This document shows positions 21,217 through 46,206 of a stretch of DNA of 64,000 nt, in pieces. The stretch covers positions 1 through 64,000 of the forward strand of contig JASAND010027992.1 of the NCBI GenBank assembly GCA_030248195.1. The letters are read 5' to 3'. This stretch comes from Trissonchulus latispiculum. Taxonomy: Eukaryota; Nematoda; Enoplea; Enoplida; Ironidae. Each line of letters starts with the position of its first letter. Positions within the stretch are counted from its first letter, which is position 1. Under the pieces are notes generated by a model that saw only the letters and a program-made list of their open reading frames with translations, was not told the origin of the DNA and did not search any database. Made by a program: the position numbers and the translations under genes.

Positions 21217-21786
21217 CATATGTAATGAATTCAATTTTACTTAAGGACTGTGAGTCAAAATTGTTTTAGCTTTTGGTTGTTGTTATCAAAACAATTACTC
21301 TTGATCTAAAATATTTCAAGGCTGCTCATTTCATTCCAAAGTAGAGGAAGATTAATTCTTTCTGTGATGAATCTCATATTTTCCTGGAAAGTCGCGCTTT
21401 TAGTGCCATTCACTAATAGATTGCGACTTTTGTCCCAACTTTCATTCTAGGAGCAGAAGCAAGAATTTCTTGTCTGTTTAATTTCCTGTTTTCTCAAATT
21501 CGTTCCTTCAAAGAGTCACTTAATAATAAATTGCACCCTCTGGCACAGTGCTTGCTGTTTGCCACAGGTAGCACCTATATCATAAAGTGGGGGGACGCCG
21601 CAATTTCTGTTAACTTTATTTTGCATTATCACATTTTATCTCATATATCTTAAAGAAAACTAAGATAAAATGTTGACCACTGAAGAAATACAGAGTTTAA
21701 ATTTGTGCATTCTTTATGAAAATATACTAATTTTTTATAACTCAAGCTTTTGAGAAGCACCCCCTCAAGTTACAAACTTTGCAGTG

Positions 21787-22085
21787 GTCAAATTTACTTT
21801 CAGCCAAACCTTAACGTTTGGCAAAGTTTCGGAATAAAATCCATTATTGTGCTTTATTCCTTCACCTGTCCACATTAATTATGAGCCTTAGTCTTGCTTT
21901 AGGAAAGCTGAAAATTTAATCACGAACTTTATATTGGTCAAATTTACTTTCAGCCAAACCTTAACATTTGGCAAAGTTTCGGAATAAAATCCATTATTGT
22001 GTTGTATTCCTTCACCTGTCCACATTAATTATGAGTCTTAGTCTTGCTTTAGGAAAACAGAAAGTTTAACTTCTAAATTATAAGT
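21787..22085. repeat. Tandem duplication (2 x 150 bp) inside U3
   Basis: GTCAAATTTACTTTCAGCC begins at 21787 and again at 21937. About 130 bases match between the units. The same pair occurs in the 3' LTR (offset +19824), so the duplication predates this insertion. Confidence 0.85.
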
Positions 22086-23759
22086 GTATCTGCTCGGGAC
22101 TTGTATACTCAAAGAGTTTCTGACTTTCGTGTATTTAAAAGAAAGTTAATGACCACCTTTGGGTCCTTTATGCCGAAATGCACACTACTTTAGTGGGGTT
22201 TTGTGCCCATCTTTTACGATTTTGGTGTATGCCAGTTAGGCTCGCTGAAATAATATTTTTGGTTTATGCTTTTCCACTAGCCTAGGCTCACTGAAATAGT
22301 ATTTGTGGTAAATTGTAGTAATTAATTTTATCATAAATTTGTGGCTTCAATAGTTTTTCCAAAAGTAAATAGCGCCGGATAAAACAATTAATTACAGTTT
22401 TGCATTTAAAATCTGTAAACACGTTTAAAATTAACTTGGAAATGCAACCACTGAAATGAGCACAACCTTAAGTTAGTATTAACGAACAGAAACTGTTGAA
22501 GTATAAGAAATTTAACGGATTAAGTACCAGAGTTAAATTACAGTTTTAAAAATATCTGCTACGGCTGTTCCACCTTAACGCTGCGATATGTCTACTATTA
22601 GTTTATTTCACTAATTAACTTTTCAATTTCTACGATATTGATGCAGAAACGGAATTTACGAGTCAGAAAATTATGTCTGAAAAACTACAAGTATGGAAAG
22701 TCTAGGTCACATCCACATCATTAACTTTAACGAAAGTGTTAGAGCAAAATAATAATTTTTACACAATACCTAAATACTGTTCAGCTGGAACTTCTAAATT
22801 CTGGGCGATGGCTATCTACAGAAATTCACCAAACATCGAATCTATTTTGTCATGAGCACCGTTCAATAACAGATCAGATGTACTGTATCAGATATATTGA
22901 ACCTGGCTGAAGTTAGCAAATAAGTCCCACTATTTAGATACAGTGCTCATCAGTGCTCACCAAGCAATGTTATTGATGCTGTCAAATAGATTCCAGCATA
23001 GTTAGTCACGGTTCAAGAAAATAATACTGAGTCAAACTTTTTTGTGCACAAATTTTGTGACCTATTCAACGTTGACGGTCCGACTGTTGCGCAACTAAGT
23101 TTGAAATAAGTCCTAGAAGTTGGTGTCTGCACATCATGTAGTGTTGTCTCTGCGACTAAAACTGAAGTTCAGAGTACTCAGTCAATTAGTAATTAGTTTA
23201 ACCGCCAGTTTTGATTGATCTGAAATTTGAGCAATCCGAGCATAAAGCTAATGCAAATCGGACAAATTGTACAAACCGTACAGAAAGCATTTAGCAAATC
23301 ACCATGCATTCAGAAACTGGAAATTCAAGGCTTGTATCATTTCAATTTCAGTCGAATCCGTGATTGTGTTAACAAGCCGGTTTATGCACTACCAACTGTC
23401 TCAGTTTGTATCAAAATTTCACAGTTCAGGTTATGCAAATTGCTCCCCACGGTGATGAGTCTATGAAGTGTTAATTGAGTTGGCAAGGGGCAGAAATCGA
23501 CATTGGACTAATTAGACCATGCCGTATGATCTTCAACAAAATAAAGTTTAAGTCAATTCAAGCATTTTAGGTTGTTGCGCTATTTAAACTAATGAACAGC
23601 AGTTTAATTATCCAAAATGGTAGTGATAAGTTGTAGATTCTTTCACTAAATACTCGTAACATTTTTGTCAAAACACAAAGTTTGCAAGTTCAACTGTTTA
23701 ATCTCGGCATGTACAATGCGCAATTTGTATTCGGAGCATACCAACAGCAACCAATCAAC

Positions 23760-23809
23760 AACACCAGTAGGCCAGAAACCCACTAAGGGATCGAACCATT
23801 ACTGGTGTT
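23760..23809. other. tRNA-like hairpin in the LTR
   Basis: AACACCAGTA (23760-23769) pairs perfectly with TACTGGTGTT (23800-23809) across a 30-base loop. The loop on the minus strand contains GGTTCGATCCC, a match to the pol III B-box/T-loop consensus. There is no A-box or cloverleaf, so it is not called a tRNA. A second copy is at 43584-43633. Confidence 0.4.
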
Positions 23810-26253
23810 CGCATTTTGTAGTTTTCTTTCGTTGCTGATTGTAATTTCACAAAAAACGGGATTCTTCTAAGTTTCAGTCAAAACATTCGTCTTTTCACTC
23901 CAGTAATGTTTTCAAAACAGCCCAAACAACAGTAATGTGAAGTCGCTAGTTGTTAGTTAGAATGAGCTAATAACGCGCTAATAACAAGCATGTCCGTAAT
24001 TGCAAGTTTGCTTTCAAATGCAGAAAGTCATTGCTTTTAAAGCCAATTTCCTTAGACAGGTCAAAGACAGATCTTTTGTACCAAGGTGACACTCTGGTAA
24101 GATGATCCGAATTCTATCGTACAATTGAGTAGTACTTATCAACATTGGTTGTTTTAACTACCTTTCCTAAATTTAACAAAGTCACAGATTTATGAGCATT
24201 ACTGCAGATGTCTGGTATTGCCATCGCATTTTCAGAGACCTGTTAACTGTAAGAAAAGTAGAGCAAATTCGTGGCTGAAGAGTTAGTTTATAGTATTCAT
24301 TGCTGCAATAAAGGCCAGGTCTAAATTGCAAATCTCGATTTTTGCCATGCACAGATAATTAATAGTTCGATATCATGTTAAGTTAATTCTTCTGAAAACA
24401 TTACGTTTCTGTGCACAACACGGCTTTATCTGGCGTTTTTAGCTTTATCTAACTTAGTCACAAAGTCAAAATCATGTAGCATTGTAGCAATCACTGAAAC
24501 TGTGACGTTAACTGAAACTGAAACTGGGTCCAAGTTTTGATACACAATTCCATCGTACAATTTGGATTGATGTTCTTGCAATAATCTTAGCCAATACATT
24601 GTGATTGCAAAAAAGTAGCGGAAACTCTAAAACACATTCAAATTATAGATTCCTTTCCCAAATCCTTAATTGCATACGAACAACTGAACAGCTGGACAGC
24701 AAGTCTACTGAAAATATTAAATGCTACAAAATCTTGCAACTGTGAGTCTTTCGTAGTTACTCACAACCTTTTATATGATCATGAGTATCAACTGTGCAAC
24801 AGCCTTAAATAGTATCCAGTAGATGTTAAAGTCTCAAAAATGTGAAATATAAGATCATCACCTTAGCGTGTGATCTTACTATTCCCAACAGTGGCAACAG
24901 CAACAGTCGCATGGGTTACGTAACTTATCTAAAACTTTTAAATATCAAAGAGTTAACCCAAATATTAATCCTACTTTCAGAAAGTAGCAAATAATGCAGA
25001 AATTACAGTTCAAAGTTGTAAGGGTTTCAATTAGCAGCTTCTGTAACGATAAAATGGTTGTGTCAAAGCCAGTCAAAAAGGGCAATTTCTAGCTATAGGG
25101 GTTAAGGAAGCCACAAATTTATATTCATTTTGATAGGGCATGTTTTGATATTTTTGAATATTTACAAGGGTTAAAACCGTTTACTATGTAATTAATGGTT
25201 TTAACCCATTTGATTCAGGTTCGAAGATTCCTGGTACGGCCCACATCCGTGGCCGTGAATCAACTTTATTTATTTATTAATTAGTAATGTATTAGAAGTC
25301 GGAAATCTCAGAGCGACGAACATTTTGGTGGCTACAACTCTGCGGACTCTCGATTGAACCTATACTGTGGCTCATAGAATCATCTCGGAAGGTACTATGT
25401 AGCAGTAAAGTGCTATATACTGAGAAGTTAGAAACATCTGAGCGGCAGTGGCCTTGACTTATCTTTGGCTGCCATCTGTATGTCAGTTGATCATCGCAAA
25501 TATAATCTAAAGAAACCGTCTTCACCTTACGACGGCACTTGCCGTGGCTTTAGCCTGAACTTTCAAGTCCTACCTTTCTGGATTCAGGAATCCACCTTGA
25601 TGTTAGTCTAAAATTTGAAATCCTGCCTGTCTAAATTGCATGAACTCGGTCTTCAGTTTGTTGTTCTATTTTGTAATGGTTTGAAACTTTTGTATTTCTA
25701 AAGGTCAGAGTCTGCTTTACAAGTAATACTTCCTATAGGAATTCAGATTGGGACAATTAATTGTTTAAGCCTTCAGTTTCAATTCAAACCAAAATAATTG
25801 ACCTCTGTTTTTGTATTAACCGATTGGTAGTAATCACTGAGTGAAGAGAGTAGAGTCTAGTGCCTTATCTTATTATTAATTAATTGAGCTGTGTCTATAT
25901 CTATTCATTTGAACTGTCTTTGTAACTACTTTTATGAATCTGTTTTACCTTTTCATTCTGCGCTGTAATCATTATCCTTGTTGCTTCGTCCTTATCTATA
26001 CACTTATGAGATCTGACTATCATTAAATACTGTTTGTGTGGTAAACTGAATCTATCGCTGATTTCCGTATAAGTTGGCTTATAGGCTTGAAGGCGGTGAC
26101 TGAGCGTATACAACTCAGCCGAGCCTTTACTTGCATATTCACGACCCGAAGACCTATTTTGAGAATAGTATCTGCTGACCCCTGAAATTAGGCTAACTGT
26201 CGAGGCACCGTTGTCGGAAAATCACCTCATCGGAGTCTCTGACCTAAGTACTT

Positions 26254-26292
26254 TTATAGTACGCCGTTAGCCTGTGTAACGAATTATTCAGT
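26254..26292 (+). promoter_or_regulatory. Predicted LTR core promoter: TATA and initiator
   Basis: TTATAG at about 26254-26259 is followed some 33 bases later by TTCAGTG (26287-26293), a match to the TCAGT-type initiator. This would start transcription near 26290, leaving R plus U5 of only about 90 bases. The call is based on motif spacing alone. Confidence 0.5.
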
Positions 26293-26329
26293 GCTCGTTT
26301 TAACTAAAGTTGGATAATTTTGAATTTGG

Positions 26330-26335
26330 AATAAA
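26330..26335 (+). terminator. LTR polyadenylation signal AATAAA
   Basis: AATAAA lies about 40 bases after the predicted start site and 43 bases before the LTR end, a normal position for R. The 3' LTR copy at 46154-46159 would terminate the genomic transcript. Confidence 0.6.
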
Positions 26336-26386
26336 GACCCCTGATTCCATTAATCTAAGTTTAAGGAATTTCGTTACACAGAATTT

Positions 26387-26404
26387 TGGAGCCCCCAGTG
26401 AGGA
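26387..26404 (+). other. Primer-binding-site candidate
   Basis: TGGAGCCCCCAGTGAGGA starts eight bases after the 5' LTR, with the TGG expected opposite a tRNA 3' CCA. I could not match it confidently to a particular tRNA. A 6-bp stem, 4-base loop hairpin (GTGAGG/CCTCAC, 26439-26454) follows and repeats part of the motif, as packaging or dimerisation hairpins often do. Confidence 0.5.
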
Positions 26405-26596
26405 AAACTGACTCATTTTCGATTTTTAAACAATAACAGTGAGGTTGTCCTCACCTGACCCCATCAGTGGAAATCAGCGAAGATTTTGTTTTACTTCTGT
26501 AATTTTCACTTCCTTCTGTCTCTAGCTTAGGTTCACATATTATAGACCATCACCTTTTTTTAATAGGTCTGATTGAGTATCTAATTTAGAAGTGTC

Positions 26597-28321
26597 ATGT
26601 GGTCTCATATCATCTCACTGACTATATCTTTTTTAATACCTCAGTTTTTACGATTAGGTTCTAGTTTTTTCTATCCTGTTATGGTTCGGCTGTTAGCAGC
26701 AATGTTTAGGAAGTTCTGTCCCTGCACTTGTAGCCATAACACTAGCTTACCGTCTTGTAATTCATTAAGAGTCCTGTCCGTAGGAGTTCAAACTGAGGAA
26801 ATCGACGATAGCGGCATTGAATCTGATTACTCGGAAGACAGTTCATCCTGCTGCTCAGAAACCTTCTACGATGTTGAGGAACCGCCGAGTTCGTTTCCTG
26901 TAGCTAATGATAGATGTCTGATTGCCTCTCCCCAAGTCGACTATAATTCTGACTACGCTTCAGAAGTAGGTTCCAGCTTTCGTGACTCTTTGGAATCCTT
27001 GAAGTGTTCTTCGGAAGTTTCGCCGTATGGCATTTCGAACCCTTTACAGGATGTTTCTCTTCTGCATTGCCCTGTCCCCATTATGAAGCTCCCTTCGCCC
27101 CCATTGAATCTAGTTGCTAATGTAAACGATTGTGGTTACCCAAGTAGCTCTTTGTTGCCAGAATCTGCATCGTCATCTCCTGTACCAGGGTGCAAGATTA
27201 TCCGTTCGATAGATAGTCCTGGTAAGTTTCTTCAGTCTCGTCAATTGGTTAATCAATCATTGTCTCCTCAACCACAAGAGGAAGTTAGGGATAGTCATCA
27301 CTTGGAGTTACCAGAAGAAACTCAGCTGGATTCGTGCAGTTCCAGCGTTAGCAGAGGATACGATGAGTCCGGGTGTAAAACGGAAACGGATGTTCCATTG
27401 TTCCAACAACAGTTAAGTAAAGTTGTTCAAGAGGTTGTTCGGCTTCTTGGCGATAACTCACAAGTTCAGTCAGCATCGTCTGCTCTCCTGAATATCAAGC
27501 AATTTTCTGGTCTTGACCACGAGAACATCTTGGATCACCTTCATCAGTTCGAAGCTACTTGTACAGCCCTTCGTTGCTCCGATGAGACCAAGATAAAGTT
27601 GTTGCCGTGCACCTTTTCGGGAAAAGCAAAAGAGTTGCTTCGAGTCCAACAGTCGCATTTGTGGGGTACGTGGTCATCATGGCTAAAGAATATTCGGGAA
27701 CTTTTCATTAGTTCCGCGGATAAACTACTTGCTACAAAGTTGCTGTACACCATTAAACAAGGAGGTTCGGAAACGGTAACTGACTACTATTTGAGGTTAC
27801 ATAAATATTGTCGGGTAGGCGGCCAACTGAACCCCAGTTCTCATCAGGTTTATTTGGGCAGTGTCTTTGTCTTGGGTTTGAGGAAGGAATTACTCTCCAA
27901 AATGCCTTTATCAGATGAGTTGGAGTTGAATGCAGCGTTTACGTTTGCTCGTACAGCGGAGAGTACTGATTTAATATCCTGTGACCAGGTTCCAGCATTC
28001 CTGAAAGATAATTCCCCACCGACGATTGCCAAGAGTTCCCAACCATTAACCAGGCGCTGTTATAATTGTCACGGAATCGGACATATAAAGCGGAAGTGTC
28101 GCAAGCCTGGAGGAGGTGCCCACAGTCTTGTAAATCGTAATGTGCGTACCAGTTTTCCTTTTGCTCAGGAGACAGTAATGATTCGAGAAGATGCAGGTAG
28201 TTTGCGTAATACCAGTGAAAATAAGTACGATTATTCTGAATGTGCACCAACACAGTTGCATAAGCCCTCTTTGACTGGATGTATTGGGCCTATGTTCACT
28301 CCCAGCTTCGCATTGCATTAA
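26597..28321 (+). CDS. gag: Gag polyprotein of the giant LTR element
   Basis: A 574-codon ORF begins 307 bases downstream of the predicted transcription start. Residues 1-35 are unusually hydrophobic (two short membrane-like stretches, then CPCTC). Residues 55-290 are Ser-rich, acidic and probably disordered. About 295-450 resembles the Ty3/gypsy retrotransposon capsid, with QFSGLDHENILDHLHQFE near its start and a helical region ending around LNAAFTFARTAES. A CCHC zinc knuckle follows at Cys488, Cys491, His496, Cys501 (C-X2-C-X4-H-X4-C) for RNA packaging. The frame stops at 28319-28321 with no overlapping pol and no frameshift continuation visible. Gag should form the virus-like particle; replication enzymes must come from elsewhere. 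The intact ORF agrees with a young insertion. Confidence 0.9.
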   Translation: MWSHIISLTISFLIPQFLRLGSSFFYPVMVRLLAAMFRKFCPCTCSHNTSLPSCNSLRVLSVGVQTEEIDDSGIESDYSEDSSSCCSETFYDVEEPPSSFPVANDRCLIASPQVDYNSDYASEVGSSFRDSLESLKCSSEVSPYGISNPLQDVSLLHCPVPIMKLPSPPLNLVANVNDCGYPSSSLLPESASSSPVPGCKIIRSIDSPGKFLQSRQLVNQSLSPQPQEEVRDSHHLELPEETQLDSCSSSVSRGYDESGCKTETDVPLFQQQLSKVVQEVVRLLGDNSQVQSASSALLNIKQFSGLDHENILDHLHQFEATCTALRCSDETKIKLLPCTFSGKAKELLRVQQSHLWGTWSSWLKNIRELFISSADKLLATKLLYTIKQGGSETVTDYYLRLHKYCRVGGQLNPSSHQVYLGSVFVLGLRKELLSKMPLSDELELNAAFTFARTAESTDLISCDQVPAFLKDNSPPTIAKSSQPLTRRCYNCHGIGHIKRKCRKPGGGAHSLVNRNVRTSFPFAQETVMIREDAGSLRNTSENKYDYSECAPTQLHKPSLTGCIGPMFTPSFALH

Positions 28322-30549
28322 TACTCACACGATCTGTGACCTTCTTCATGCCATTTATGTTAATTAACTTAATTGGGAGCTTCAGCTCTGGAGGGCTTTA
28401 GCCCTGCGATAACTGGCTGGCTGAAGGTCCAGAATAGCGCAGAAGTGTCGTAGAGTAAATCAGAGATGTGTGCCTGTTTGCAGTAGTTTCTATGTGAATG
28501 CAATTTCTACGAAATTGCGATTTGTTATATATACCCAAAAATAGGTCAGAGAGTGAGGATTGTGTAATTGTTAGTTATATAATCGAAGCAGATTTTTGGT
28601 GTATTGACTAGTAGGCGTGATCGTGAGCAAGTGTTAGAAAGAGCAATTGGTATAAAATATCTGTGGTTATTAATTTAATTGAATCCGAATCTATCACCTC
28701 AAATATATAAGTAATCATGTTTCATACTTCTTTCTTTCTCGATTTGCTGGTTATCCTATTAATTATTGTCCCTGATGTATATAGGCGAGTGAACATTTAT
28801 ACTTGTTTTATTACGTTGTTTATTATATTTATTATGTTTAATAATGTAATTAGTTGTAACAATTGTATAATACATTGAATATTTAATTATTATGTGTGTC
28901 GATAGCGAATCCGAAAGGACTACATTTGTAAGAGTGTCGTTATGCCATTTCAAGAGTGTGTAGTGTAACCATTTGTAATAGTATGAAAACCATATATAGT
29001 CGGATTTGAATTATAACGCTCAACTTCACTTGAACGTATAGCCTTAGGCGGTGATCGAATGTTTGATAGGACCTTAATTAGGTATGTAGGTATGTCCTTA
29101 ACCTTGATCATAGGATTACACGAACGGTTGATAGCAATTCACTAACAATCAGTCCATGTGTCATGTCAGTTTCGTGAAATCCTCGGCAATAATCATTAGC
29201 TTTTCACGTTTCTTTGAATAGTTGGTTTATGTTTAGGAACTTTCTGGAGATGAGATCGGGGCAGGACATACAATGATAAATTTTAAAAGCAGCAAACGTT
29301 TACTTACAAACATCTTTTTGAACAATTAATACTAGGTTTTTAGTTAACATAAGATGTTGAAACTAAGCCCAACCGAAACTGGAGCAATCTTTAGTGCTTG
29401 GTATTTGTTTTAAATGAGAAAAGACAAGTTTTCGTTTTTAGAGCAGCAGTTCCCGGTTTGATTCAAACGCCGAACGCTTACATCCCCTCACATTTTATAT
29501 ATGTTTGTTGTTCAACGAGAATGAGTATTTTTACATTTTTACATTGTGTTTAATATATTGAGGCAAATTTTGGACGAAAATGGAACTAAGCGAAAATATA
29601 ATTTCTTTCACTGTCAGTCAGTGAAACCGACTTTGTACAGTTTCCGAACTTGAGCCGATCCGCGTTTAGTCAAAGTTGTCATGCCAAAAGGAAAACGTTT
29701 TCTCGTTTGAGCTAGCAGTGCAATTTATGACATTTAAGATTAAAGTTCAGGTGGTCCTGTTTCCGTGGAAACTTAATGTAGAATTAAAAGTATAACTCAA
29801 GATTGCACGCCTTTAATCACTAATTGATAGATAGAAGTCAAAGGGGAAGAGGTCTGGTTGATTAAGACAAAAGCATAGTTAACTGATAGTAAACTGCGAC
29901 GCTAAAATCGTATTTTTAATAGTTCGTAATTCTTCAATAATATTAAGCAACCTACATCGATTGTTCAGATCATACAGCGTTTAACTAAGCCTGATTATAT
30001 AGCTGGAGTAAGAGTCACCAAAGTACAATACTGCAAATGTGTAAAGATTGCTTTCCACCTGGTTGCATGGCTTATTTCATAGAAAGCTACATAACTTACG
30101 AGATAGACAGAACAAGCACGGAAGATGCCGCTTTGACATTGGCCAGGATTAAGCCAGATGATTTTAATTAACTACTTTGATTTTTTGAATAATTTTGAAG
30201 TGCATATCTTGAACAGATCTTACGCAGACTTGTATTCTACTTTCAATACTCCGTTACACGTTATCAATTTTATTTTAAAAGGGAATCAGAGGATCACTGC
30301 AACCGAATTCTTAAAACTCATGCAAACTTAGTTGTAAAACGTTTTCGGTTTTCATGTTCAGACCACGACTCTTGAGTAATGCATGGCAAAGGAACAAACT
30401 TAATATCTACTACTATATTTTTACCGTAAAGGATTTTGTTTTAGTAATTATGAAAGTCCAAAGTAGGTAAAAATTTTTCAAAAAAGCTTGAGCACAATGC
30501 TGTGATCTATTAACAAATTTCTTAAAGTTATCATCTGTTTTGATAGCAC
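28322..30549. other. Non-coding interior of the LTR element, part 1
   Basis: No frame with protein-domain similarity occurs in either strand, although this is where pol would normally follow gag. I see no RT YxDD box, no aspartic protease DTG/DSG in a plausible frame, and no integrase HHCC motif. Confidence 0.7.
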
Positions 30550-31545
30550 TTAAGGTGGTGATTCCTTTTGGGCACAAATTGTTGGTTGGCGGCGCAAATC
30601 AGGATGAAATCTGGCGAAACTTACCGAAATACGTTCTTTCAGCGTTCTAACACCCTTCGCGCAATCCCGGTTCGAAAATTCGAGATTTCCGATCAGGGCG
30701 GTTTTTCCCAATTTCTGATAGTTTGGCGGGCGCTATACAGTTATGACTATATTCATTTGAAAGATCTCGTTGAGCTTCACATTTTTTGCTTTTTAAAGCA
30801 ACGCTCTAGCTTTTCTCTAGCGTGCGATATAGCAGATTTTCTTGTTTTGGCGTCGAAAACTTGTCATTTTTGCAGAAATCAAATAATCCAACATTTCTTG
30901 AACTACGCAAGCCGTAAAATCTAACTAAGGTCGTCGATCTGAAGGTCTCACAGGGGCAAATTATCCGATGGATGATCGTCTTCCAACAGTTATCCTGTAG
31001 GCTGCTATCATGAAAAATGTAGTTTTTGCAAAAAACACGATTAATTCTTTTCCAAAGATTGTGGAGCATTCACCATGCAAGCTGGAGGGCTGCTACTTAA
31101 CAAATGAGTTCAGCACAAATATACCCCGGGGCGTTTTTTTTTAGTTGCAGCGATTACTGCTTTCTAGCTAAAGTAATCGCTTGACAAATTTGGAAAAAGT
31201 AGGCAAAATACAGGTTACGCACACATTTCAGCTTATTTCTCCATAACGAAGAGCGATTTCACAATAAATAAAAAATCGTCCCCAGCTATTTGATGGAGGT
31301 ATCGAATGATACAAGCCGATGTCTCGCGAAAAAATTTACTTGAGTCTGCAAAAAAATCGGGAAAATTATACTTCTTCTAAAATGTGTTAAAAATATTTTA
31401 GAAAAACAATATTGGTTTCATGGTATGCATTAAAACGAGAAAATGTAAAGCTGCATTTTGATACAAAAATGGTTTCTTAACTCCAAGTAATGAATGAGTA
31501 ATAATGGAGCAAACATTATGTGACCAAAGGGAATCACCATCTTAA
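30550..31545. mobile_element. TTAA-flanked non-autonomous transposon, copy 2 (inside LTR element)
   Basis: GGTGGTGATTCCTTTTGG (from 30554) and CCAAAGGGAATCACCAT (to about 31541) are flanked by TTAA (30550-30553, 31542-31545). The body aligns with copy 1 at 2000-2844. It carries about 130 extra bases near 31243-31375, between CAGCTTATTTCT and TCTTCTAAAATGTG. The 118-codon open frame inside is not conserved in copy 1 and is not a gene. Divergence from copy 1 looks far greater than that between the LTRs. Confidence 0.75.
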
Positions 31546-34500
31546 AAGAGTAATTGTGGAAGATGGAAATGAAGGAAATACAGGAAAATGAATACAGAGT
31601 AACTTTCTTGTTTTCACATACCTCGGATAGAGATTTCGCAACTCTATTTGTGCTAGATGCGTGCTATAAAAATTAATAAGATCATACCGTTATCACATAG
31701 TTGCAATTTTCGATCACTCAAAACCAAGCTGTCCATTATCACAAAAAAACCTTGATTTATGACGACTCATAGAGCCTGTGGAAATTTGTAGTGCTGTAAG
31801 TACTGAATTCAGAGTATTGAGTATTGAAAATTTAAAAGAAATAGCGAACTGCGAACTTGGAACATTCCGCTAACATCTGGAGTAAAATTGGACAATAGAA
31901 TGCCTGTCAGTTTTCTTCCAACAAAGTTAATCCAGCTCAATTATTTCGGGGTGAAGTTAGTTTAACTGTAAGGGATAACTTATGTAGGTTAGACTTAGAT
32001 TAATTTCGAAACTCCGTGTACTTCGTCATGCAAGTTTTGTGGACCTTGACTAGTAAAATTAAATGCTTAACCCTAAATTTCTGTAAAGAAAGATTATGAA
32101 TCACTTATAATAACCGTGATTCCAGTTTTATGGAAAAAAGTTTATCTGAAAGTATTAATAAGCAGGAGTTTAAGGCTTGTCTATAAATTGGGAAAATATT
32201 CCACCGTTGAGTTACATATTTAAATGTAATTAAATTTTCATTTTGCGGATTCAGAATATATACTGAATTAGCTATTGACAAAGTTTATTTGACAAGGTAA
32301 AATTATAGAATCGCTAAAATTAGTGCTAGCAAGTACAATGGAAACTATAATACTTATGGTAGCCGGGAACTGACATTTGGTTAGCGTGTCAGCAATCTGA
32401 TATTTTGTATGTTAGAGGTGGATTCTAAATCAATGAATTGTTCAAAAATAATGAGGACTGATTACAATTAGCTGGGTTTGATCCATTTTCAAGTATAACA
32501 TCAGTACTTGGTCATCTCTTTGTCGCCTGTAAAATTCAGTTTGATTCAACTCAAATCGGCCTCCATAGTGGGAATCAGCTTCGATGAGTAGCTAGCTGCT
32601 CGGTAACTGAGATGTAACTAACTTTAGAGAGCATGCGATTAAACATCAAGAGAGTTAAGAGTATAAGAAAACAATGAAACCTCCGGGACATATTTGGATT
32701 ACATATTTCTTAAAAAACCATCAAGGCTATTTGAACCATCTTACCTCCAAAAAAAAGTATTCCACTATTTAAAGTTTAGTTGACAGTCGCTTTCAAACCA
32801 AATAGTATAGTCATAACTAGGGATGTCAGCCATCAGCACTCCATTCAGAAAAGCATGTGGCACTGCATTGTCTTAGTTTTCTTAAAATCCAGGCTGTCCC
32901 TGTATAGCAATTTCAATCTTGATCGATGTCTACGAATACCAATTAGTCTGATTCATACTGATAATTTAGTTGCCAGAAATACACACTGCGACCAGACAGA
33001 AAACTTGCATAATCCACGACGCCGCAACACAAATGGGCCGTAATCCATGACGCCTATACCAAAATTTTCAGTAATCCATAAGGCCGATACCTATAATTTG
33101 GAACAAGATATTTTAAGTTGATCCAATTTTCTTGTACATTCCATATAGAAGTCAATTTATAGGTTTGATTTAGTAGCTAAACATAGATCCAATACTAACC
33201 GAAAGATCAAGCAGAACGTATATTGTCCACTTACACTTCCAATTTGTTGGGGAAGATTAAGTTAACATGTTGTTAAGAAAGTTGCATAAGTTGTATAATA
33301 TTCTTAGTTTGAGGAAAACGGTCAAAATTCTTCAACCTACAACGTAAATAACACATTGTCTAGTTTTATAATATTGTATAAAACTGATAGCGTTTTAGAT
33401 GTGTGTGCTTATGCTGCAGCAGCAGTGTTAAGTAAGTTAATGCTATGAAACATATCTTAGGTGTGCAAAACTCCGTCAGTCTTTAATTAGTAATCCATAT
33501 CACCATATCTTTGTCAATGACAGAAAACGTTTGAGTACATCCAAACCATTTAACACAGATCTGCGGTTGTATAATTGTGCATAGGATTTTGGGGAATTTG
33601 GAAGTCCTAGCAGCTTTGGTTAAAGATGACAAAAATCTAAATTTAATGTAGCCAAATACGTGCCAACTTTTTAAGATACGGTGTCTTCTCTGGCCAGAAT
33701 TGCCAGTGTAAGTATTCTGTTAAATGGAATACTTTATTCTCAAACTGTGAGTAAGGCGTAGGTTCAAATACCTAAAGTTTTCTTAAGTCCGAATTGGGCC
33801 AGAATCAGTCAGTTAATAGTATGTTTCTTCCTGTACAATTTCTGTTTGAAAAGTTTTGTGCCATTTTCACAAAGTTCGTGCAAATTACTTAACTATTTCA
33901 CTGTATTTACAAGGTACTTAATGTTCGTTAATCGCTACGTTCGCATCTCGAATCATCACTTGAACAGTAGTTTGTTGAAAGGAAAGTACCTTATCATGAA
34001 ACTTACGAATCTTATAGATTCAGTATTCAAATGATTATGATCAAATTTACCTTAGTTTTGGCAAGCCTTAATTAATCTATCTAGATTTGATATTAATGTA
34101 TTTTGTAGTCTATAAGCTAACTTAATTAGAGCGCGTGACTGTCTGTAATTTCAGGCGGTTCTACCGCACAATCTTTTGGTGATTCCTTTCTTTTGTAGGA
34201 CAATGAGGGTCAGGACTGTATTTCTGGTGCTTGTAGAAATTTATTAAAACCTCCATCGCTGGCATTCTAAAAATGTTTTCACTGTAACTTTAAAAAGTGT
34301 ATATATCTTTTTGGCGAACCAATAAACCAGTTGGTTTTAGATTTCAAACTAGACAGTTAAACAGATACATCAAGTGTTACTACAAATTAAAACTTGGAAC
34401 AATGTAAAACATTCCGACTGCTGAATTACTGCTATCCAGTTGACAAAACAAGATATTTAATCTATTAGCTGTGTAAGCGAAAAAAAAATAGTTACAAGTC

Positions 34501-35490: not shown

Positions 35491-36389
35491 TTAACACGTT
35501 CACGACAAAGCAGGTTTCAGGACGTAATAGTCTCAGACAAAACCAGTTAATGAAGAACTACAAGCTGAGGAATGAGTTCAATTATTTCAATAGAATCCCA
35601 ATATCATTGCGCAGTCAATTTTGGCTGTTTCGGGGTGTGACCCACCCGTGGGTCACATTGTTTATAAATACAAAGTACTATCCAGAGACAATGTGACCCA
35701 CCGGTGGGTCACAGTTTTTAAGCTTTTTTCGATGCTTTCGGGATATGTTTATCAAGTTTTCACACTTTTTCTTGTCAGTTTCCTTTATTTCAACGTTTTT
35801 ACCAGTCGTACGGGAGTTTTGTTAGTCCAAAAATGTTCTGTGTCATTCTAAAATGGGAATAATCAAGGTATTTGAGGATCTAAAACGCCGTAAATGCTGT
35901 ATTGATCGTTTATTATTATTATTATTAGGCATTTCAAGATTGGTACTAGAGTGGAAATTTAAATTTCAGCTCTTAGCCATCAAAATTAGTAAAAGACCGG
36001 GCCACACTAATAATTCAACCTAATGTTCAAGTTATTATTCATGAAACTGTTCCATAAACAGTGTTAGAGCATGTAGATAGTGGTGAGACATTAAACAGCA
36101 CTGATATTTGACTTTTAGGTGGTTTATATCAATTAAATAACCTAATTGTTGTTGAAAGGACAATGTGACCCACCGGTGGGTCACAGCCAAATCTGAAAGC
36201 TGCCAAACACTTCAGCGCACAGCAGCTTATTCCACACAGACAATGCATTAGTTTATCGCTTGCGCGACAGACAAAAGCGTGAAACATGGATAATATTTAT
36301 ATGCATTTGTGACCCACCGGTGGGTCACGCGTCTGAGCGGAAAGTAGGTTGTGACCCACCGGTGGGTCACATTGTCGCGAACGTGTTAA
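35491..36389. mobile_element. piggyBac-like MITE with five 20-bp palindromes
   Basis: The element (35495-36385, 891 bp) has 14-bp inverted ends CACGTTCACGACAA and TTGTCGCGAACGTG (13 of 14 paired) and is flanked by TTAA at 35491-35494 and 36386-36389. It contains the palindrome GTGACCCACCGGTGGGTCAC at 35693, 36165, 36309 and 36351, and a variant with CC in place of the central CG step at 35637. No transposase. The TTAA duplication and CAC-type termini indicate piggyBac ancestry. The palindromes are candidate transposase or host-factor binding sites. Confidence 0.82.
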
Positions 36390-39300
36390 ACCACCAATCT
36401 TAATCTAATATGATGCAGTTTGATTTTCGGTTCTGTTTCGATTTAATTTCATTACAATTCAGTTTCGCTCAGTGTGGAGCATAGCCCTCCTGGAGGAAAT
36501 TAATAAGTTGGTGGCGCAATTAGAAGCAGCGAAGTTAGCTGCTCAGCAATCAGCATGCCCAAGCAGAAAAGAAAGGTGCACATACATATTTCACCGCATT
36601 CCACAATCCTATATTCTGCTCTCATTTCACAGCTAATCTTTGAACTTTTACTGATAACGGAACCTAAATTAGTCTCCAGAAATAAAATTAAAGTGCGCTG
36701 TCTGATTCACAATAACAATTATTCAAGAATAAATATCTGTTTTGTTGTTGTGCAAACAGATTTGACAAGAGTTTCAAAAACTTAACGTTTTGAGTTGGCG
36801 TAGCATATTTTCGAACCAATCCTGTGCGATCGATTTATTATTAAATTAGTACTTAACAATTGGGCAACATGGAGCCAATACTTAATGTCTTGGGGTTAAA
36901 GAATGTGGCATATAGTCAGCAACCTGAGGAAGATCGCTGATACACTACTCTAAGCAACTGGTTCTAGCAATTGTAAACCTAATTGGTACTGCAATAACGA
37001 TTTTTTCCATGAAATTATTACGTGAAATTGTGATATTAACGACATAAAGGTCTAAAACGCATTATTCTTTGTAATTTTTGAGATACTATTTTTACGATAT
37101 TTTACGTTCTCCGAGACCACAACATCTCAGGGCTAGAAGCCTAGAAGTTCTAACCTAGGCATAAATCTAAGCACAAGAAAATTTGAGCTACTTTGATTTT
37201 AAATTTATAAAGTTAAAAATAAAGTTATAAATTATAAAGTTAAAAAATTAAGTTATAAAGTTAATAAAGTTTTATAAAGTTTTGTTAGTGAAGCTAATGG
37301 CCCAGATTAAGAAACAGTATTTTTATCGGCAATTTAATCCCATCAGCTGTTCCGTTTCGAATGCTTTAAAGCAGATTAACGGTTACTGCAGTATATATTG
37401 TAATAAAAATATCAAAATGATTCCAGAATCACAAATATAGTCTTTTATTATAGGACTTTTGATGTGAAAAGCTCCGATTGTAAAAGAATAAGCAAATAAG
37501 GTCAGCTCGTTTTACAGGTTTTAAGAGCTCAGAGCCAAAATGAATTCGTCGCACTTTTCATTTTATCTGTTCGTACTATACACAGCTCTAGAACAAACGA
37601 CGTAAAATGTTTTTCGTAAAACCAAGATCAAAAACGTCTAGCGGTTACGTCGAGTTCATAAACTAAACGTCGTTTCGCAAGGTTATCTTCGACAGTCTTC
37701 TAGAACCGGCATATCCTTTTTTGAAAATTTGATTCGTAACAAAATTGCCATCATTCTCAAAGTTAGGTTGAAATGTCAAAGACAGGTTCATTAGATATAT
37801 TGATTGCGATAATGATATCATCAGCGCCACTCCATTTGGTCCTGGCGGCTTCTCAGTGTCTATTTTCAAAGGGTACAAGACTGCTTATACGTGATTCTTC
37901 AAAACAAAGTGGTAGGTAACTTTCGTTAAATTGAAGAAATGTAACACAGGTTTTGGAAGTCTTGATATGTTTTAAATTTAGCAAATTTTCCAATACTCCA
38001 TTTACCTTCACCATATTGGCGTTAGGCCTGATTTTAGAAAGAGCCATTACTAAGGATTACAAGTATCAGCTCAATCCTCAAATACCGTCATTGATAAAAA
38101 CTAAACTGATACAAACTTCCATACCTATTCGCAGTTCCTATTGCTTTTGTCGCTTATTTCATGTCCTGTCAAATTTCAAGACAGTATTTTCACCAATTTT
38201 GTATGCGTTACAACCTTTCTGGGACAATACAGACGCCTTATAATAGGAATAAGAATAAGCCTTATACAGACTAAATCTGCTAACAGTAAGCGTTAGAAAT
38301 ATCACAGTCAAATTACTTGAAAGAAAATAATTCCACTACCTAAACAGATACTAGCTTAATGTTAACTCTTACGTACTTCTTCAAGAATTGAGACAAGTGT
38401 TTCTGGAATTGAACCATGAGGATCATTCTTACTACTACTGTGTCTAGTAACCAACAGAAACCAACAGACATATTGGTTCTACAGTCTTGCTTGGAATATA
38501 TTTAATTAAGATAATTTAACTATTATTTTGACTGGCCAATAATATTTGTGTTAGTTTGTGCAGCTTGATTGGTGACACAAGAGAAAGCTGGTATTCGACA
38601 ATGGCCATTTGCATAACTGATCTGGTGTGTGTGCTTTTACGGTGTACATTTGTCAGCATAGTTTGAGATATCTACTGTTCTTATATTAGACAGCAGTTCC
38701 AAATTCGAAATTTGGACAATTAAACGAAGTTTATCTTCTGCGGTATCAGTGGAGTCTGATAACAGGCGATTGGCGCCAATTGTCTTGTGATAGACGATAC
38801 TGCGGGTGACAGCTTCATTACGAATCATACAGTGGACACGGTGGGTCTGTCACAGTACAGTGTGTCCATACTGTAGTAACTAAATGTTTTAAAATTTAAT
38901 GTATCCTTTCGCTTTACGGTAAAAGTGGCGACAGAGAAATTACTGAAAGTAACCATTTCAATTGGCAGAATTCAAAATTCATAACCGTGTTTTGTTTTGT
39001 AAATTTTTGTTCGCATAGTTAAGAACCGTCATTCCAGTGGTCGCCGAGACACGGGGTCTCCCATGCAATCATCTGTGTGTGACGTCTGAGCTGTGGGAAC
39101 TATTACAAATTATTATAAACCTAACTTTTGCTTTCAGATAATTTCTGATGTCGTCCAGACTGTTGTGGTCCAAGTAATTTCCTTTCAAATTTGCATCAGT
39201 GAGTTGCAACCAAGGCCGCAATACAGATCAGCTTTTTAGAAGCCGGGTATCAGTTTGGAAAAGCCTGAATCTCAGAAGATACTTATATCGTCGACCAAAT

Positions 39301-41036
39301 TACATTTTCCAAGACAGGATCTAAAGCAAAGACACTGTCCAAGCAGATGCGAAAAATTCATTTAAGCAAAAGAAACAATACAAACTAGCGATAATCAGAG
39401 GCGTAGGCAATCCCAAGTTCGAGCAAAACACCGTCCTCCGTAAACAGTTGCTGGAAACCTGGCAGAGGTAGCTTCAGACAGTATACCTTCGAAAGTTTTA
39501 GATATTACAAATTCAGCTAAAGTTTGGATTGGGGAACTTCCTCCAAGTTGCGGTCAACCCCAGGATCTTCCTAGAAAAGCCAGCCGATTCCAGCTCACAG
39601 TCAGACTAAGCCTAAACCTAAGCCTAAGTCATAAGGAGTTAAAAACCTGATCACCTCCCTCCAGAGCAATATCCTTCAAGTGAATTTACTGCTCTCGTAC
39701 GATGACTTCAACGATTAGATTTTCATCGCAAAATCCGAAGACCGGCGGACTGACCTTCATTTCAGTGATTTAGGTGGATGTAAACTGTTGGATAAACTGC
39801 GGCAGTTGGTGGACGTTTGCTAGTTCCCTCATCTGTTTTTGCCGAGACACGGGGTCTCCTATGGTAAAGGCAGAGAAAGTAGTACTGGCTCTTGTCTGTA
39901 AATTACTGGTGTTTCATCCGATAGCTTTACCTTTTCGTCTTTAAATTTCATACGATCAGCTTTTAACATCTGAATTCATTCTGTATTCTCTAGTGGTTCC
40001 TTAATTCAGTCAAGCTATGCACTCCATGGCAATTGTTAGTCTATTCTGGTTTTAGTATTGCAAACAAACAACTACAGATTCCTTTACTTAAACCAAACCG
40101 ATTAGGCACGCGCTTGCATTGCTTTGTATTTCATTGTTTTTATATTCATCTTCTTCCTTCTCGCTTTCCTATGTCCAGCTTTATCTCACAGTCTCGCTGC
40201 TTAAATTCTATACTATCTCAGTTACGTTTTTCTCTATCCAGACAGATTAGTAGCAAAGTAATCTTTCCCTTACTCACCCTTCGCCCCCTAGTTGTCAACC
40301 TAGATCTTTTTAGTTGTTAAGGATCGGATATTATAGATAGAATATTGCTGCAAATGAGCGTTGGCTTCAAGGAAATAGTATTACTACAGCTCGGAAAGTT
40401 TAGTATCATTGCAACTAGATCACAGCGTATTAAAATTTATGTCGGAAAATTATAATAGCAAACCAACAAACTCTAAGCTTGACAGCAAATAAGCGAACTT
40501 TGACCTTATATTAAAGAATTCGATGTATTATATCTGTGTTTATGTTATATGTAGTTGAACCGTATCTTGTATCTTGTGTATTTTATCTATATCAACATAT
40601 TTATGCGTTTTGTTCTTATTATGTACCTCTTGCTCCTTGTTACTGTTTTTTCTGAAACTCTGTTGTTATGAATTTTGGCTATGTATGAGGTTGATACCTT
40701 TCTTTCAAAAGAAGCTAAACCTGAATTATTTCCTTTATCTACTGTATTTTTCGCAATATTTTGTTTGTTTGCCGTGAAGCTACATGAAGCGGTATTTAAT
40801 AGATTTCTGTTACTGCAAATCACTGTAATATGACAGGTGTCTTGCGGGTTGTCCCTATTGTGTCTTGCGTTAGTTTGATCTGTGTGAATTCTATTGATTT
40901 TATTGGTGGCCTCACTGAAGCCTATATTACCTTTTCTTGGGATGAAATTTAGAAATCTCTTATGATCAGACTAGAGTTTAGAATCTTCTTGTGTTCAAAA
41001 TCACCCTCCTAGTACAAAAACTACCCCTTTTTTCTT
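36390..41036. other. Non-coding interior of the LTR element, part 3
   Basis: No recognisable gene in any frame. An identical 19-mer, GCCGAGACACGGGGTCTCC, containing the inverted repeat GAGAC/GTCTC, occurs at 39043-39061 and 39841-39859. An AT-rich (TAAAGTT)n-like tract lies at 37195-37285. The frames of 60-96 codons here look random. Confidence 0.6.
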
Positions 41037-41043
41037 GGGAAGG
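41037..41043 (+). other. Weak polypurine tract before the 3' LTR
   Basis: GGGAAGG followed by C directly precedes the TGTAA start of the 3' LTR, where plus-strand DNA priming begins. It is short for a polypurine tract, but the position is right. Confidence 0.5.
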
Positions 41044-41044
41044 C

Positions 41045-44000
41045 TGTAATGAATTCAATTTTACTTAAGGACTGTGAGTCAAAATTGTTTTAGCTTTTGG
41101 TTGTTGTTATCAAAACAATTACTCTTGATCTAAAATATTTCAAGGCTGCTCATTTCATTCCAAAGTAGAGGAAGATTAATTCTTTCTGTGATGAATCTCA
41201 TATTTTCCTGGAAAGTCGCGCTTTTAGTGCCATTCACTAATAGATTGCGACTTTTGTCCCAACTTTCATTCTAGGAGCAGAAGCAAGAATTTCTTGTCTG
41301 TTTAATTTCCTGTTTTCTCAAATTCGTTCCTTCAAAGAGTCACTTAATAATAAATTGCACCCTCTGGCACAGTGCTTGCTGTTTGCCACAGGTAGCACCT
41401 ATATCATAAAGTGGGGGGACGCCGCAATTTCTGTTAACTTTATTTTGCATTATCACATTTTATCTCATATATCTTAAAGAAAACTAAGATAAAATGTTGA
41501 CCACTGAAGAAATACAGAGTTTAAATTTGTGCATTCTTTATGAAAATATACTAATTTTTTATAACTCAAGCTTTTGAGAAGCACCCCCTCAAGTTACAAA
41601 CTTTGCAGTGGTCAAATTTACTTTCAGCCAAACCTTAACGTTTGGCAAAGTTTCGGAATAAAATCCATTATTGTGCTTTATTCCTTCACCTGTCCACATT
41701 AATTATGAGCCTTAGTCTTGCTTTAGGAAAGCTGAAAATTTAATCACGAACTTTATATTGGTCAAATTTACTTTCAGCCAAACCTTAACATTTGGCAAAG
41801 TTTCGGAATAAAATCCATTATTGTGTTGTATTGCTTTACCTGTCCACATTAATTATGAGTCTTAGTCTTGCTTTAGGAAAACAGAAAGTTTAACTTCTAA
41901 ATTATAAGTGTATCTGCTCGGGACTTGTATACTCAAAGAGTTTCTGACTTTCGTGTATTTAAAAGAAAGTTAATGACCACCTTTGGGTCCTTTATGCCGA
42001 AATGCACACTACTTTAGTGGGGTTTTGTGCCCATCTTTTACGATTTTGGTGTATGCCAGTTAGGCTCGCTGAAATAATATTTTTGGTTTATGCTTTTCCA
42101 CTAGCCTAGGCTCACTGAAATAGTATTTGTGGTAAATTGTAGTAATTAATTTTATCATAAATTTGTGGCTTCAATAGTTTTTCCAAAAGTAAATAGCGCC
42201 GGATAAAACAATTAATTACAGTTTTGCATTTAAAATCTGTAAACACGTTTAAAATTAACTTGGAAATGCAACCACTGAAATGAGCACAACCTTAAGTTAG
42301 TATTAACGAACAGAAACTGTTGAAGTATAAGAAATTTAACGGATTAAGTACCAGAGTTAAATTACAGTTTTAAAAATATCTGCTACGGCTGTTCCACCTT
42401 AACGCTGCGATATGTCTACTATTAGTTTATTTCACTAATTAACTTTTCAATTTCTACGATATTGATGCAGAAACGGAATTTACGAGTCAGAAAATTATGT
42501 CTGAAAAACTACAAGTATGGAAAGTCTAGGTCACATCCACATCATTAACTTTAACGAAAGTGTTAGAGCAAAATAATAATTTTTACACAATACCTAAATA
42601 CTGTTCAGCTGGAACTTCTAAATTCTGGGCGATGGCTATCTACAGAAATTTACCAAACATCGAATCTATTTTGTCATGAGCACCGTTCAATAACAGATCA
42701 GATGTACTGTATCAGATATATTGAACCTGGCTGAAGTTAGCAAATAAGTCCCACTATTTAGATACAGTGCTCATCAGTGCTCACCAAGCAATGTTATTGA
42801 TGCTGTCAAATAGATTCCAGCATAGTTAGTCACGGTTCAAGAAAATAATACTGAGTCAAACTTTTTTGTGCACAAATTTTGTGACCTATTCAACGTTGAC
42901 GGTCCGACTGTTGCGCAACTAAGTTTGAAATAAGTCCTAGAAGTTGGTGTCTGCACATCATGTAGTGTTGTCTCTGCGACTAAAACTGAAGTTCAGAGTA
43001 CTCAGTCAATTAGTAATTAGTTTAACCGCCAGTTTTGATTGATCTGAAATTTGAGCAATCCGAGCATAAAGCTAATGCAAATCGGACAAATTGTACAAAC
43101 CGTACAGAAAGCATTTAGCAAATCACCATGCATTCAGAAACTGGAAATTCAAGGCTTGTATCATTTCAATTTCAGTCGAATCCGTGATTGTGTTAACAAG
43201 CCGGTTTATGCACTACCAACTGTCTCAGTTTGTATCAAAATGTCACAGTTCAGGTTATGCAAATTGCTCCCCACGGTGATGAGTCTATGAAGTGTTAATT
43301 GAGTTGGCAAGGGGCAGAAATCGACATTGGACTAATTAGACCATGCCGTATGATCTTCAACAAAATAAAGTTTAAGTCAATTCAAGCATTTTAGGTTGTT
43401 GCGCTATTTAAACTAATGAACAGCAGTTTAATTATCCAAAATGGTAGTGATAAGTTGTAGATTCTTTCACTAAATACTCGTAACATTTTTGTCAAAACAC
43501 AAAGTTTGCAAGTTCAACTGTTTAATCTCGGCATGTACAATGCGCAATTTGTATTCGGAGCATACCAACAGCAACCAATCAACAACACCAGTAGGCCAGA
43601 AACCCACTAAGGGATCGAACCATTACTGGTGTTCGCATTTTGTAGTTTTCTTTCGTTGCTGATTGTAATTTCACAAAAAACGGGATTCTTCTAAGTTTCA
43701 GTCAAAACATTCGTCTTTTCACTCCAGTAATGTTTTCAAAACAGCCCAAACAACAGTAATGTGAAGTCGCTAGTTGTTAGTTAGAATGAGCTAATAACGC
43801 GCTAATAACAAGCATGTCCGTAATTGCAAGTTTGCTTTCAAATGCAGAAAGTCATTGCTTTTAAAGCCAATTTCCTTAGACAGGTCAAAGACAGATCTTT
43901 TGTACCAAGGTGACACTCTGGTAAGATGATCCGAATTCTATCGTACAATTGAGTAGTACTTATCAACATTGGTTGTTTTAACTACCTTTCCTAAATTTAA

Positions 44001-46202
44001 CAAAGTCACAGATTTATGAGCATTACTGCAGATGTCTGGTATTGCCATCGCATTTTCAGAGACCTGTTAACTGTAAGAAAAGTAGAGCAAATTCGTGGCT
44101 GAAGAGTTAGTTTATAGTATTCATTGCTGCAATAAAGGCCAGGTCTAAATTGCAAATCTCGATTTTTGCCATGCACAGATAATTAATAGTTCGATATCAT
44201 GTTAAGTTAATTCTTCTGAAAACATTACGTTTCTGTGCACAACACGGCTTTATCTGGCGTTTTTAGCTTTATCTAACTTAGTCACAAAGTCAAAATCATG
44301 TAGCATTGTAGCAATCACTGAAACTGTGACGTTAACTGAAACTGAAACTGGGTCCAAGTTTTGATACACAATTCCATCGTACAATTTGGATTGATGTTCT
44401 TGCAATAATCTTAGCCAATACATTGTGATTGCAAAAAAGTAGCGGAAACTCTAAAACACATTCAAATTATAGATTCCTTTCCCAAATCCTTAATTGCATA
44501 CGAACAACTGAACAGCTGGACAGCAAGTCTACTGAAAATATTAAATGCTACAAAATCTTGCAACTGTGAGTCTTTCGTAGTTACTCACAACCTTTTATAT
44601 GATCATGAGTATCAACTGTGCAACAGCCTTAAATAGTATCCAGTAGATGTTAAAGTCTCAAAAATGTGAAATATAAGATCATCACCTTAGCGTGTGATCT
44701 TACTATTCCCAACAGTGGCAACAGCAACAGTCGCATGGGTTACGTAACTTATCTAAAACTTTTAAATATCAAAGAGTTAACCCAAATATTAATCCTACTT
44801 TCAGAAAGTAGCAAATAATGCAGAAATTACAGTTCAAAGTTGTAAGGGTTTCAATTAGCAGCTTCTGTAACGATAAAATGGTTGTGTCAAAGCCAGTCAA
44901 AAAGGGCAATTTCTAGCTATAGGGGTTAAGGAAGCCACAAATTTATATTCATTTTGATAGGGCATGTTTTGATATTTTTGAATATTTACAAGGGTTAAAA
45001 CCGTTTACTATGTAATTAATGGTTTTAACCCATTTGATTCAGGTTCGAAGATTCCTGGTACGGCCCACATCCGTGGCCGTGAATCAACTTTATTTATTTA
45101 TTAATTAGTAATGTATTAGAAGTCGGAAATCTCAGAGCGACGAACATTTTGGTGGCTACAACTCTGCGGACTCTCGATTGAACCTATACTGTGGCTCATA
45201 GAATCATCTCGGAAGGTACTATGTAGCAGTAAAGTGCTATATACTGAGAAGTTAGAAACATCTGAGCGGCAGTGGCCTTGACTTATCTTTGGCTGCCATC
45301 TGTATGTCAGTTGATCATCGCAAATATAATCTAAAGAAACCGTCTTCACCTTACGACGGCACTTGCCGTGGCTTTAGCCTGAACTTTCAAGTCCTACCTT
45401 TCTGGATTCAGGAATCCACCTTGATGTTAGTCTAAAATTTGAAATCCTGCCTGTCTAAATTGCATGAACTCGGTCTTCAGTTTGTTGTTCTATTTTGTAA
45501 TGGTTTGAAACTTTTGTATTTCTAAAGGTCAGAGTCTGCTTTACAAGTAATACTTCCTATAGGAATTCAGATTGGGACAATTAATTGTTTAAGCCTTCAG
45601 TTTCAATTCAAACCAAAATAATTGACCTCTGTTTTTGTATTAACCGATTGGTAGTAATCACTGAGTGAAGAGAGTAGAGTCTAGTGCCTTATCTTATTAT
45701 TAATTAATTGAGCTGTGTCTATATCTATTCATTTGAACTGTCTTTGTAACTACTTTTATGAATCTGTTTTACCTTTTCATTCTGTGCTGTAATCATTATC
45801 CTTGTTGCTTCGTCCTTATCTATACACTTATGAGATCTGACTATCATTAAATACTGTTTGTGTGGTAAACTGAATCTATCGCTGATTTCCGTATAAGTTG
45901 GCTTATAGGCTTGAAGGCGGTGACTGAGCGTATACAACTCAGCCGAGCCTTTACTTGCATATTCACGACCCGAAGACCTATTTTGAGAATAGTATCTGCT
46001 GACCCCTGAAATTAGGCTAACTGTCGAGGCACCGTTGTCGGAAAATCACCTCATCGGAGTCTCTGACCTAAGTACTTTTATAGTACGCCGTTAGCCTGTG
46101 TAACGAATTATTCAGTGCTCGTTTTAACTAAAGTTGGATAATTTTGAATTTGGAATAAAGACCCCTGATTCCATTAATCTAAGTTTAAGGAATTTCGTTA
46201 CA
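41045..46202 (+). repeat. 3' LTR, 5158 bp
   Basis: Same length as the 5' LTR and identical apart from five substitutions (41833, 41837, 42651, 43242, 45785). It ends TTACA and is followed by the target duplication CATA (46203-46206). All internal features of the 5' copy recur at +19824. Confidence 0.93.
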
Positions 46203-46206
46203 CATA

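Follow-up and report, generated by a model that had tools for sequence, protein, structure and literature searches.

Large retrotransposon derivatives (LARDs) are long elements that are bounded by long terminal repeats (LTRs), lack both pol and a coding gag and are moved in trans, and the TR-GAG elements of plants are small. In TR-GAG elements, according to excerpts of their description (PMC8704663), two LTRs surround a single Gag open reading frame (ORF), the proteins of a related element are thought to be used, and one such element transposed in Arabidopsis ddm1 mutants. Giant Gypsy elements are represented by Burro of planarians, whose ORF1 has 4,873 amino acids (aa) (PMC6431247, in excerpt). 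Additionally, retrotransposons bearing a NADAR domain have been reported for Ectocarpus (Gypsy Pol) and for the oyster (Tx1 ORF1) in the excerpted account (PMC12477816). The present work concerns a 24,982-bp element of the nematode Trissonchulus latispiculum, located in bases 1-64000 of contig JASAND010027992.1 (C18975 in our numbering); this whole stretch of 64,000 bases is referred to as the window, and the 734-Mb assembly of 21,732 contigs was the target of all genome-wide searches. The element has two LTRs, an interior of 14,666 bp and an intact gag, and we read it as a non-autonomous, giant, Ty3/Gypsy-type gag-only retro-satellite that uses the Pol of Burro-like helpers, a model to which, as a whole, we assign a probability of about 0.77.

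The element, its second copy and its clade

The two LTRs differ by five substitutions and no gaps over 5158 bp (99.9% identity, K = 0.00097), and by this divergence the element is young and recently inserted. A sequence-only reading of the window had described equal 5158-bp LTRs with TGTAA/TTACA ends and a CATA duplication, both borne out by repeat and flank comparison, and an intact gag, found here as an ORF of 574 aa. It had also raised the prospect that the two long repeats were a segmental or assembly duplication. This was settled by contig C18648, a second full copy with its own target site duplication (TSD), CATT, and with flanks unrelated to those around the window copy, so that the window element is no assembly duplicate. 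The LTR pair of C18648 (about 5.05 kb) differs by a single indel, without mismatch, in an alignment of 5049 bases. In the comparison with the window copy, LTR identity rises from 88% (first 0.7 kb) through 94-95% (middle) to 98.8% (last 2.9 kb); Gag has 93% protein identity, the interior aligns in separate blocks of 73-85% identity, and the 70 bases upstream of the 3′ LTR are nearly identical. By this pattern the two copies are mosaics relative to each other. When the 50 places matching the LTR 3′ end were set against the gag matches by eye, seven loci were found in which two same-strand LTR 3′ ends flank a gag, 16.0-20.2 kb apart, so the window copy is not alone in its giant design. The genome evidently holds a diverse clade of gag-only giant elements and not one odd copy.

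Concerning pol, a Pfam search of the six frames of 28322-41044 (stops written as X) yielded no family at E ≤ 1; as a positive control, the same library gave RT_RNaseH (2e-40) and integrase domains in the pol-bearing element C4438. When the protease, reverse transcriptase (RT), RNase H and integrase parts of one of the genome's pol-bearing elements were compared by tblastn with the interior of the window element, nothing matched at E ≤ 1. The same queries were run on 10 kb of the C18648 interior, on 8 kb from each of three further copies, on 6 kb from two distantly related elements and on the flanks in the window, and over all of these the sole match at E ≤ 1 was a chance-like one of 22 residues in L051 (E 0.96). 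Interiors were read for at least 8 kb in five clade members, two of them nearly whole. In the 1.5 kb after gag, read in three forward frames at 29 loci, no ORF exceeds 103 aa; the thirtieth locus, L035, has only three bases after gag before its contig ends. The longest open frame among the listed gag matches is at most 1231 aa, compared with 3821 aa in C4438. An open frame of a distant relative (L040) was also considered and rejected, its Pfam matches being weak and under the cut-off. The diverged pol that the sequence-only reading had considered for this region was hence sought by both profile search and tblastn and was not found there; its 12.7-kb pol-less interior stands as far as pol goes, but is not geneless, a decayed NADAR-SGNH gene having been overlooked.

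Gag, the double hairpin and the NADAR ORF

A genome search with gag gave at least 110 places (best 76 of 1590 candidates scored), of which 30 loci, the window's own (L009) included, were fetched. Four of the 30 matches have one internal stop, and from its ATG gag stays in one frame for more than 1600 bases in the window and in 23 of the 29 other loci. The ratio of nonsynonymous to synonymous rates (dN/dS) was calculated without L012, L013, L029, L030, L035 and L038, which have no such frame, the window replacing L009; the protein alignment of 22 members leaves out L033 and L034 too. Between the window gag and 22 of its 23 relatives dN/dS is 0.28-0.37; the 275 pairs as a whole have a median of 0.33, taken as a rough figure. 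By these ratios Gag is under purifying selection in the clade. Window Gag alone matches Retrotrans_gag with E 4e-4, under the Pfam cut-off, and the family does so at E ≤ 0.01 in 18 of 22 members (best 4.4e-6). The zinc knuckle reaches E ≤ 0.01 in eight of the 22, its Cys and His residues being invariant in all aligned members, and PNMA profile matches occur in six. Neither gag nor the 22-member profile found a protein relative at E ≤ 0.001 among the 8000 candidates scored for each, a PDB search with Gag gave nothing better than E 0.37, and a single-sequence fold was uninformative (mean pLDDT 35.6).

Downstream of gag, two short hairpins, GGAGC-UUNA-GCUCY and GGGC-UUUA-GCCC, are present in 29 of the 30 loci, and the thirtieth stops at its contig end. 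They lie 43-96 bases from the gag match, or 244 in L034. Genome-wide, at up to two mismatches, the double hairpin was found in 30 places, with none for the reversed control, and by eye all 30 stand directly after a gag of the clade type. Hairpins of a similar form, GGAGC-NNNN-GCUCC, follow gag in two distant relatives whose gag is 41 and 43% identical, and 4.5-kb pieces of three pol-bearing elements contained no hairpin of this kind. The stems hardly vary, so covariation lends no support; from position and conservation, the likeliest role would be that of a packaging or dimerisation signal.

Some members additionally carry an ORF in the 3′ interior. In C13741 it is open for 366 codons (363 aa from the ATG) and matches NADAR with E 1.6e-19, its second half resembling SGNH/GDSL (1.6e-5, below the cut-off), while in C2485 it has at least 310 codons, running off the fetched stretch, with NADAR at 2.2e-23. 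Over their shared part the two have a dN/dS of 0.11. A third copy read there, C9337 (L050), has no NADAR ORF in its 8 kb, and decayed remnants occupy the matching place in the window and in C18648. Because it is decayed in the window copy, the ORF was probably dispensable for that copy's last jump. NADARs reverse guanine ADP-ribosylation, as stated in the part of PMC11125620 drawn on here, and a role of the ORF against host defence may be supposed. NADAR abounds in this genome (the best 150 of 2478 candidates were scored, and all of them lie above the cut-off), and some of these domains sit in frames of 670-730 aa, probably of other repeats; given this abundance, the accessory NADAR was likely captured from another repeat.

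Pol-bearing elements, proposed mechanism and alternatives

The 21-nt region of the primer binding site (PBS) recurs at 213 places of the genome at up to one mismatch, against none for the reversed control, and the PBS is identical in the pol-bearing elements L044, L045 and L046. In contig C934 a tRNA-Thr(UGU) gene has an end exactly complementary to the PBS, with 18 matched bases including CCA, which points to tRNA-Thr(UGU) as the probable primer. Two other places that fit the tRNA end were discarded as not being tRNA genes, ARAGORN identifying one of the three as a tRNA-Thr gene. As a separate observation, the leader before gag in L011, L028, L035 and L037 contains repeated units, each with CAGTGAGGA, the 3′ half of the PBS.

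A genome search with RT_RNaseH_2 (best 150 of 4344 candidates scored) placed many of the domains in open frames of 2000-3841 aa. By eye, 11 contigs are common to the scored RT places and the first 100 of the 213 PBS places. In eight of them RT lies downstream of the PBS on the same strand, at about 8 kb in six (C4438, C3815, C6651, C5939, C7570 and C13074), at 5 kb in one and at 9.5 kb in one; in C1134, C6771 and C10619 it is on the wrong strand or in the wrong order. Of the eight, three were sampled, and each bears the PBS, the common TTCATTACACGGTAAA type of LTR end and a Gag 28-29% identical to that of the window (E 2e-27 to 1e-30). C4438 has a single giant ORF of 3821 aa that encodes gag, a fusion-glycoprotein-like part, protease, RT, RNase H and integrase, the Fusion_gly match between gag and protease being weak (E 3.8e-5, under the Pfam cut-off). 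Its C-terminal part (L048) also has, after integrase, a match to an OTU-like cysteine protease just above the Pfam cut-off. Comparison of LTR 3′ ends revealed 92% identity (206 bp) between pol-bearing L045 and gag-only L024, and 90% (264 bp) between pol-bearing L046 and gag-only L032; the pol-bearing pair L044 and L045 shares 81% (133 bp). Two recombinants were also recognised: L031 joins an LTR end 97.5% like that of L017 (481 bp) to an L032-like gag, and L026 switches from L037-like to L023-like within gag. These mosaics fit template switching in shared particles, and recombination after insertion could yield the same.

We propose the following course. The RNA of the element would be transcribed from the 5-kb LTR and would encode Gag only, the gag ORF being intact and under purifying selection in the family. 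This Gag would package the RNA, probably via the double hairpin after gag, and reverse transcription would be primed by tRNA-Thr(UGU) at the site common to the pol-bearing elements. Giant Gag-Env-Pol elements of a Burro-like kind would supply protease, RT and integrase in trans, as the shared PBS, the shared LTR 3′ ends and the mosaic members suggest, and the window element would thereby be mobilised in trans; the NADAR ORF of its relatives would be an accessory gene. A broader picture, somewhat less probable than not and offered tentatively, is that of a long-lived clade of giant pol-less satellites with its own diverged Gag and packaging hairpins, and in some members a NADAR against ADP-ribosylation defence, copied and perhaps carried from cell to cell by env-bearing Burro-like helpers. 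The sequence-only reading had likewise proposed an own Gag with borrowed RT and integrase and had advised looking for a pol-bearing partner with the same LTR ends and PBS. Selection on Gag, the same 21-nt PBS region in three pol-bearing elements and related LTR 3′ ends in two of those three uphold this, and the missing part is a partner of the window's own LTR class.

Several observations weigh against the borrowing of Pol from such helpers. A pol-bearing element of the window's own LTR class was sought without success: in a comparison by eye of two incomplete lists, the 50 LTR-end places and the 150 scored RT places had no contig in common. Three further loci gave no pol match either: C19902 has a broken gag of the clade type, and C5598 and C14721 match neither gag nor pol in 9.9 kb each. 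In C5501 and C6541, whose likeness to the LTR is confined to its final ~1.25 kb, the pieces read contain no pol or gag beyond chance-like matches (E 0.067-0.64). Pol-bearing L044 is no closer to gag-only LTR ends (best about 81%) than to pol-bearing L045, save for the last ~50 bases, and a helper Gag 28-29% identical to that of the window leaves mixed particles unproven. As for selection, the 275 pairs are non-independent and the members recombine, and the window and its nearest gag, L010, have a dN/dS of 0.66 (44 and 19 changes, p 0.17 versus neutral).

The last pair is also what would be expected if Gag were a passive leftover and the element a LARD-like deletion derivative moved wholly by the Gag and Pol of a helper. 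Deletion derivatives are common, and the accessory ORF is decayed in the window copy; against this stand the 23 of 29 relatives that keep at least 1600 bases of gag, with the median dN/dS given above, and the Gag of the three sampled pol-bearing elements, so different that the window's is not kept as part of any gag-pol parent seen. We regard a passive Gag as unlikely. Less likely still is a very diverged or split pol carried undetected by the same clade, for example in unsampled members, for which there is room in that five clade interiors were read for at least 8 kb and 76 of 1590 gag candidates were scored; the empty Pfam result in all six frames of the window, the single chance-like tblastn match on seven clade stretches and the short open frames at the listed gag matches relative to C4438 speak against it.

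The remaining two explanations have very little probability. Families of gag can be domesticated, and the PNMA matches in six of 22 members might suggest that gag and hairpin serve the host, the LTR structure being incidental, but a domesticated gene has no flanking LTRs and no recent mobility, whereas here TSDs, near-identical LTRs, a conserved PBS and the seven paired-LTR loci indicate a mobile element. Equally improbable is an artefact of assembly or segmental duplication, which LTRs of 99.9% identity in an assembly of many contigs could bring to mind; it is refuted by the second copy with another TSD and unrelated flanks, and many diverged relatives exist. The gag-only satellite with borrowed Pol therefore remains our preferred reading. 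Its Ty3/Gypsy assignment goes through Gag, PBS and partners only, the order protease-RT-RNase H-integrase being absent from the window element.

Features of the window are compiled in Table 1. Each LTR contains a 148-bp tandem duplication (21772-22069 and 41596-41893). The insert-like stretch of the interior repeats a sequence that also lies outside the element, and nothing in the C18648 copy aligns with it. The left flank holds four large palindromes, 81-89% identical to their own reverse complement (645-1320, 8980-10676, 17075-17767 and 18881-19494), and an Rfam search gave no match at the gathering score.

Table 1. Coordinates of the element and its parts in the window (PPT, polypurine tract).
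Feature	Position	Strand	Remarks
TSD CATA, left	21217..21220		flank comparison
5′ LTR	21221..26378	+	5158 bp, TGTAAT...GTTACA; repeat self-comparison
PBS	26387..26404	+	18 nt complementary to tRNA-Thr(UGU) 3′ end including CCA
gag ORF	26597..28321	+	574 aa, intact
Capsid (Retrotrans_gag) match	27599..27826	+	residues 335-410 of Gag
CCHC zinc knuckle match	28055..28105	+	residues 487-503 of Gag; E 0.018, below cut-off
Conserved double hairpin 3′ of gag	28375..28405	+	hairpins 28376-28389 and 28392-28405
Insert-like stretch	30549..31545		82-88% like window 1999-2844
Decayed NADAR-SGNH accessory ORF remnant	39164..39811	+	stops, frameshifts, middle absent
PPT candidate	41037..41044	+	short purine-rich run adjoining 3′ LTR
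3′ LTR	41045..46202	+	5158 bp
TSD CATA, right	46203..46206		flank comparison

Comparison with known systems

Among described elements, Burro offers the closest likeness to the presumed helpers: C4438 is likewise one giant ORF with the order gag-env-PR-RT-RH-IN (PR, protease; RH, RNase H; IN, integrase) given in the excerpted published description (PMC6431247), but its ORF is shorter than the one reported there (3821 versus 4,873 aa) and has the OTU match. The window element itself differs from Burro in having neither env nor pol. Its host, moreover, does not look like a planarian: a cox1-like fragment is better read with mitochondrial code 5, AAA standing for Lys at conserved sites and so arguing against the flatworm codes, although the fragment has a broken frame and may be a nuclear copy. 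It resembles LARDs in length, LTRs, absence of pol and presumed movement in trans, and departs from them in its intact, selected gag; of the two classes named by the sequence-only reading, gag-only or LARD-type, the former holds (LTRs and a single Gag ORF, no pol) and the latter was given up, as gag is coding and selected. Capture of NADAR by retroelements is shared with Ectocarpus and the oyster, as far as the excerpts of that account go, the domain here having an ORF of its own, located 3′ in the interior of gag-only elements. In the open-access literature, as judged by titles and abstract beginnings of the top matches, no gag-only giant LTR element was found in an animal, which is a faint hint of novelty.

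Apart from classification, these elements have a bearing on satellites in general. The usual satellites shed the capsid and borrow one, whereas elements of the window type keep the capsid and would borrow the enzymes. Why a Gag is worth keeping can be put to the test in a diverse animal clade whose Gag is selected, whose primer site is shared and whose LTRs are exchanged with those of env-bearing giants, and packaging specificity under a shared Pol becomes testable as well, the hairpin being a ready candidate signal. With TR-GAG, as described in the excerpts of its source, the window element has in common the LTRs and the single Gag ORF without pol; a TR-GAG-style relative with similar LTRs and pol is present for other clade members, that of the window's own LTR class not having been found. 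It is an animal element of 24,982 bp with 5.2-kb LTRs, in contrast to the small elements of plants, and its clade adds a selected gag, a conserved hairpin after gag and a further selected ORF in two relatives. Taken together, the window element works like TR-GAG but is far larger, has an animal host and is one of a diverse, selected clade with a conserved RNA element of its own.

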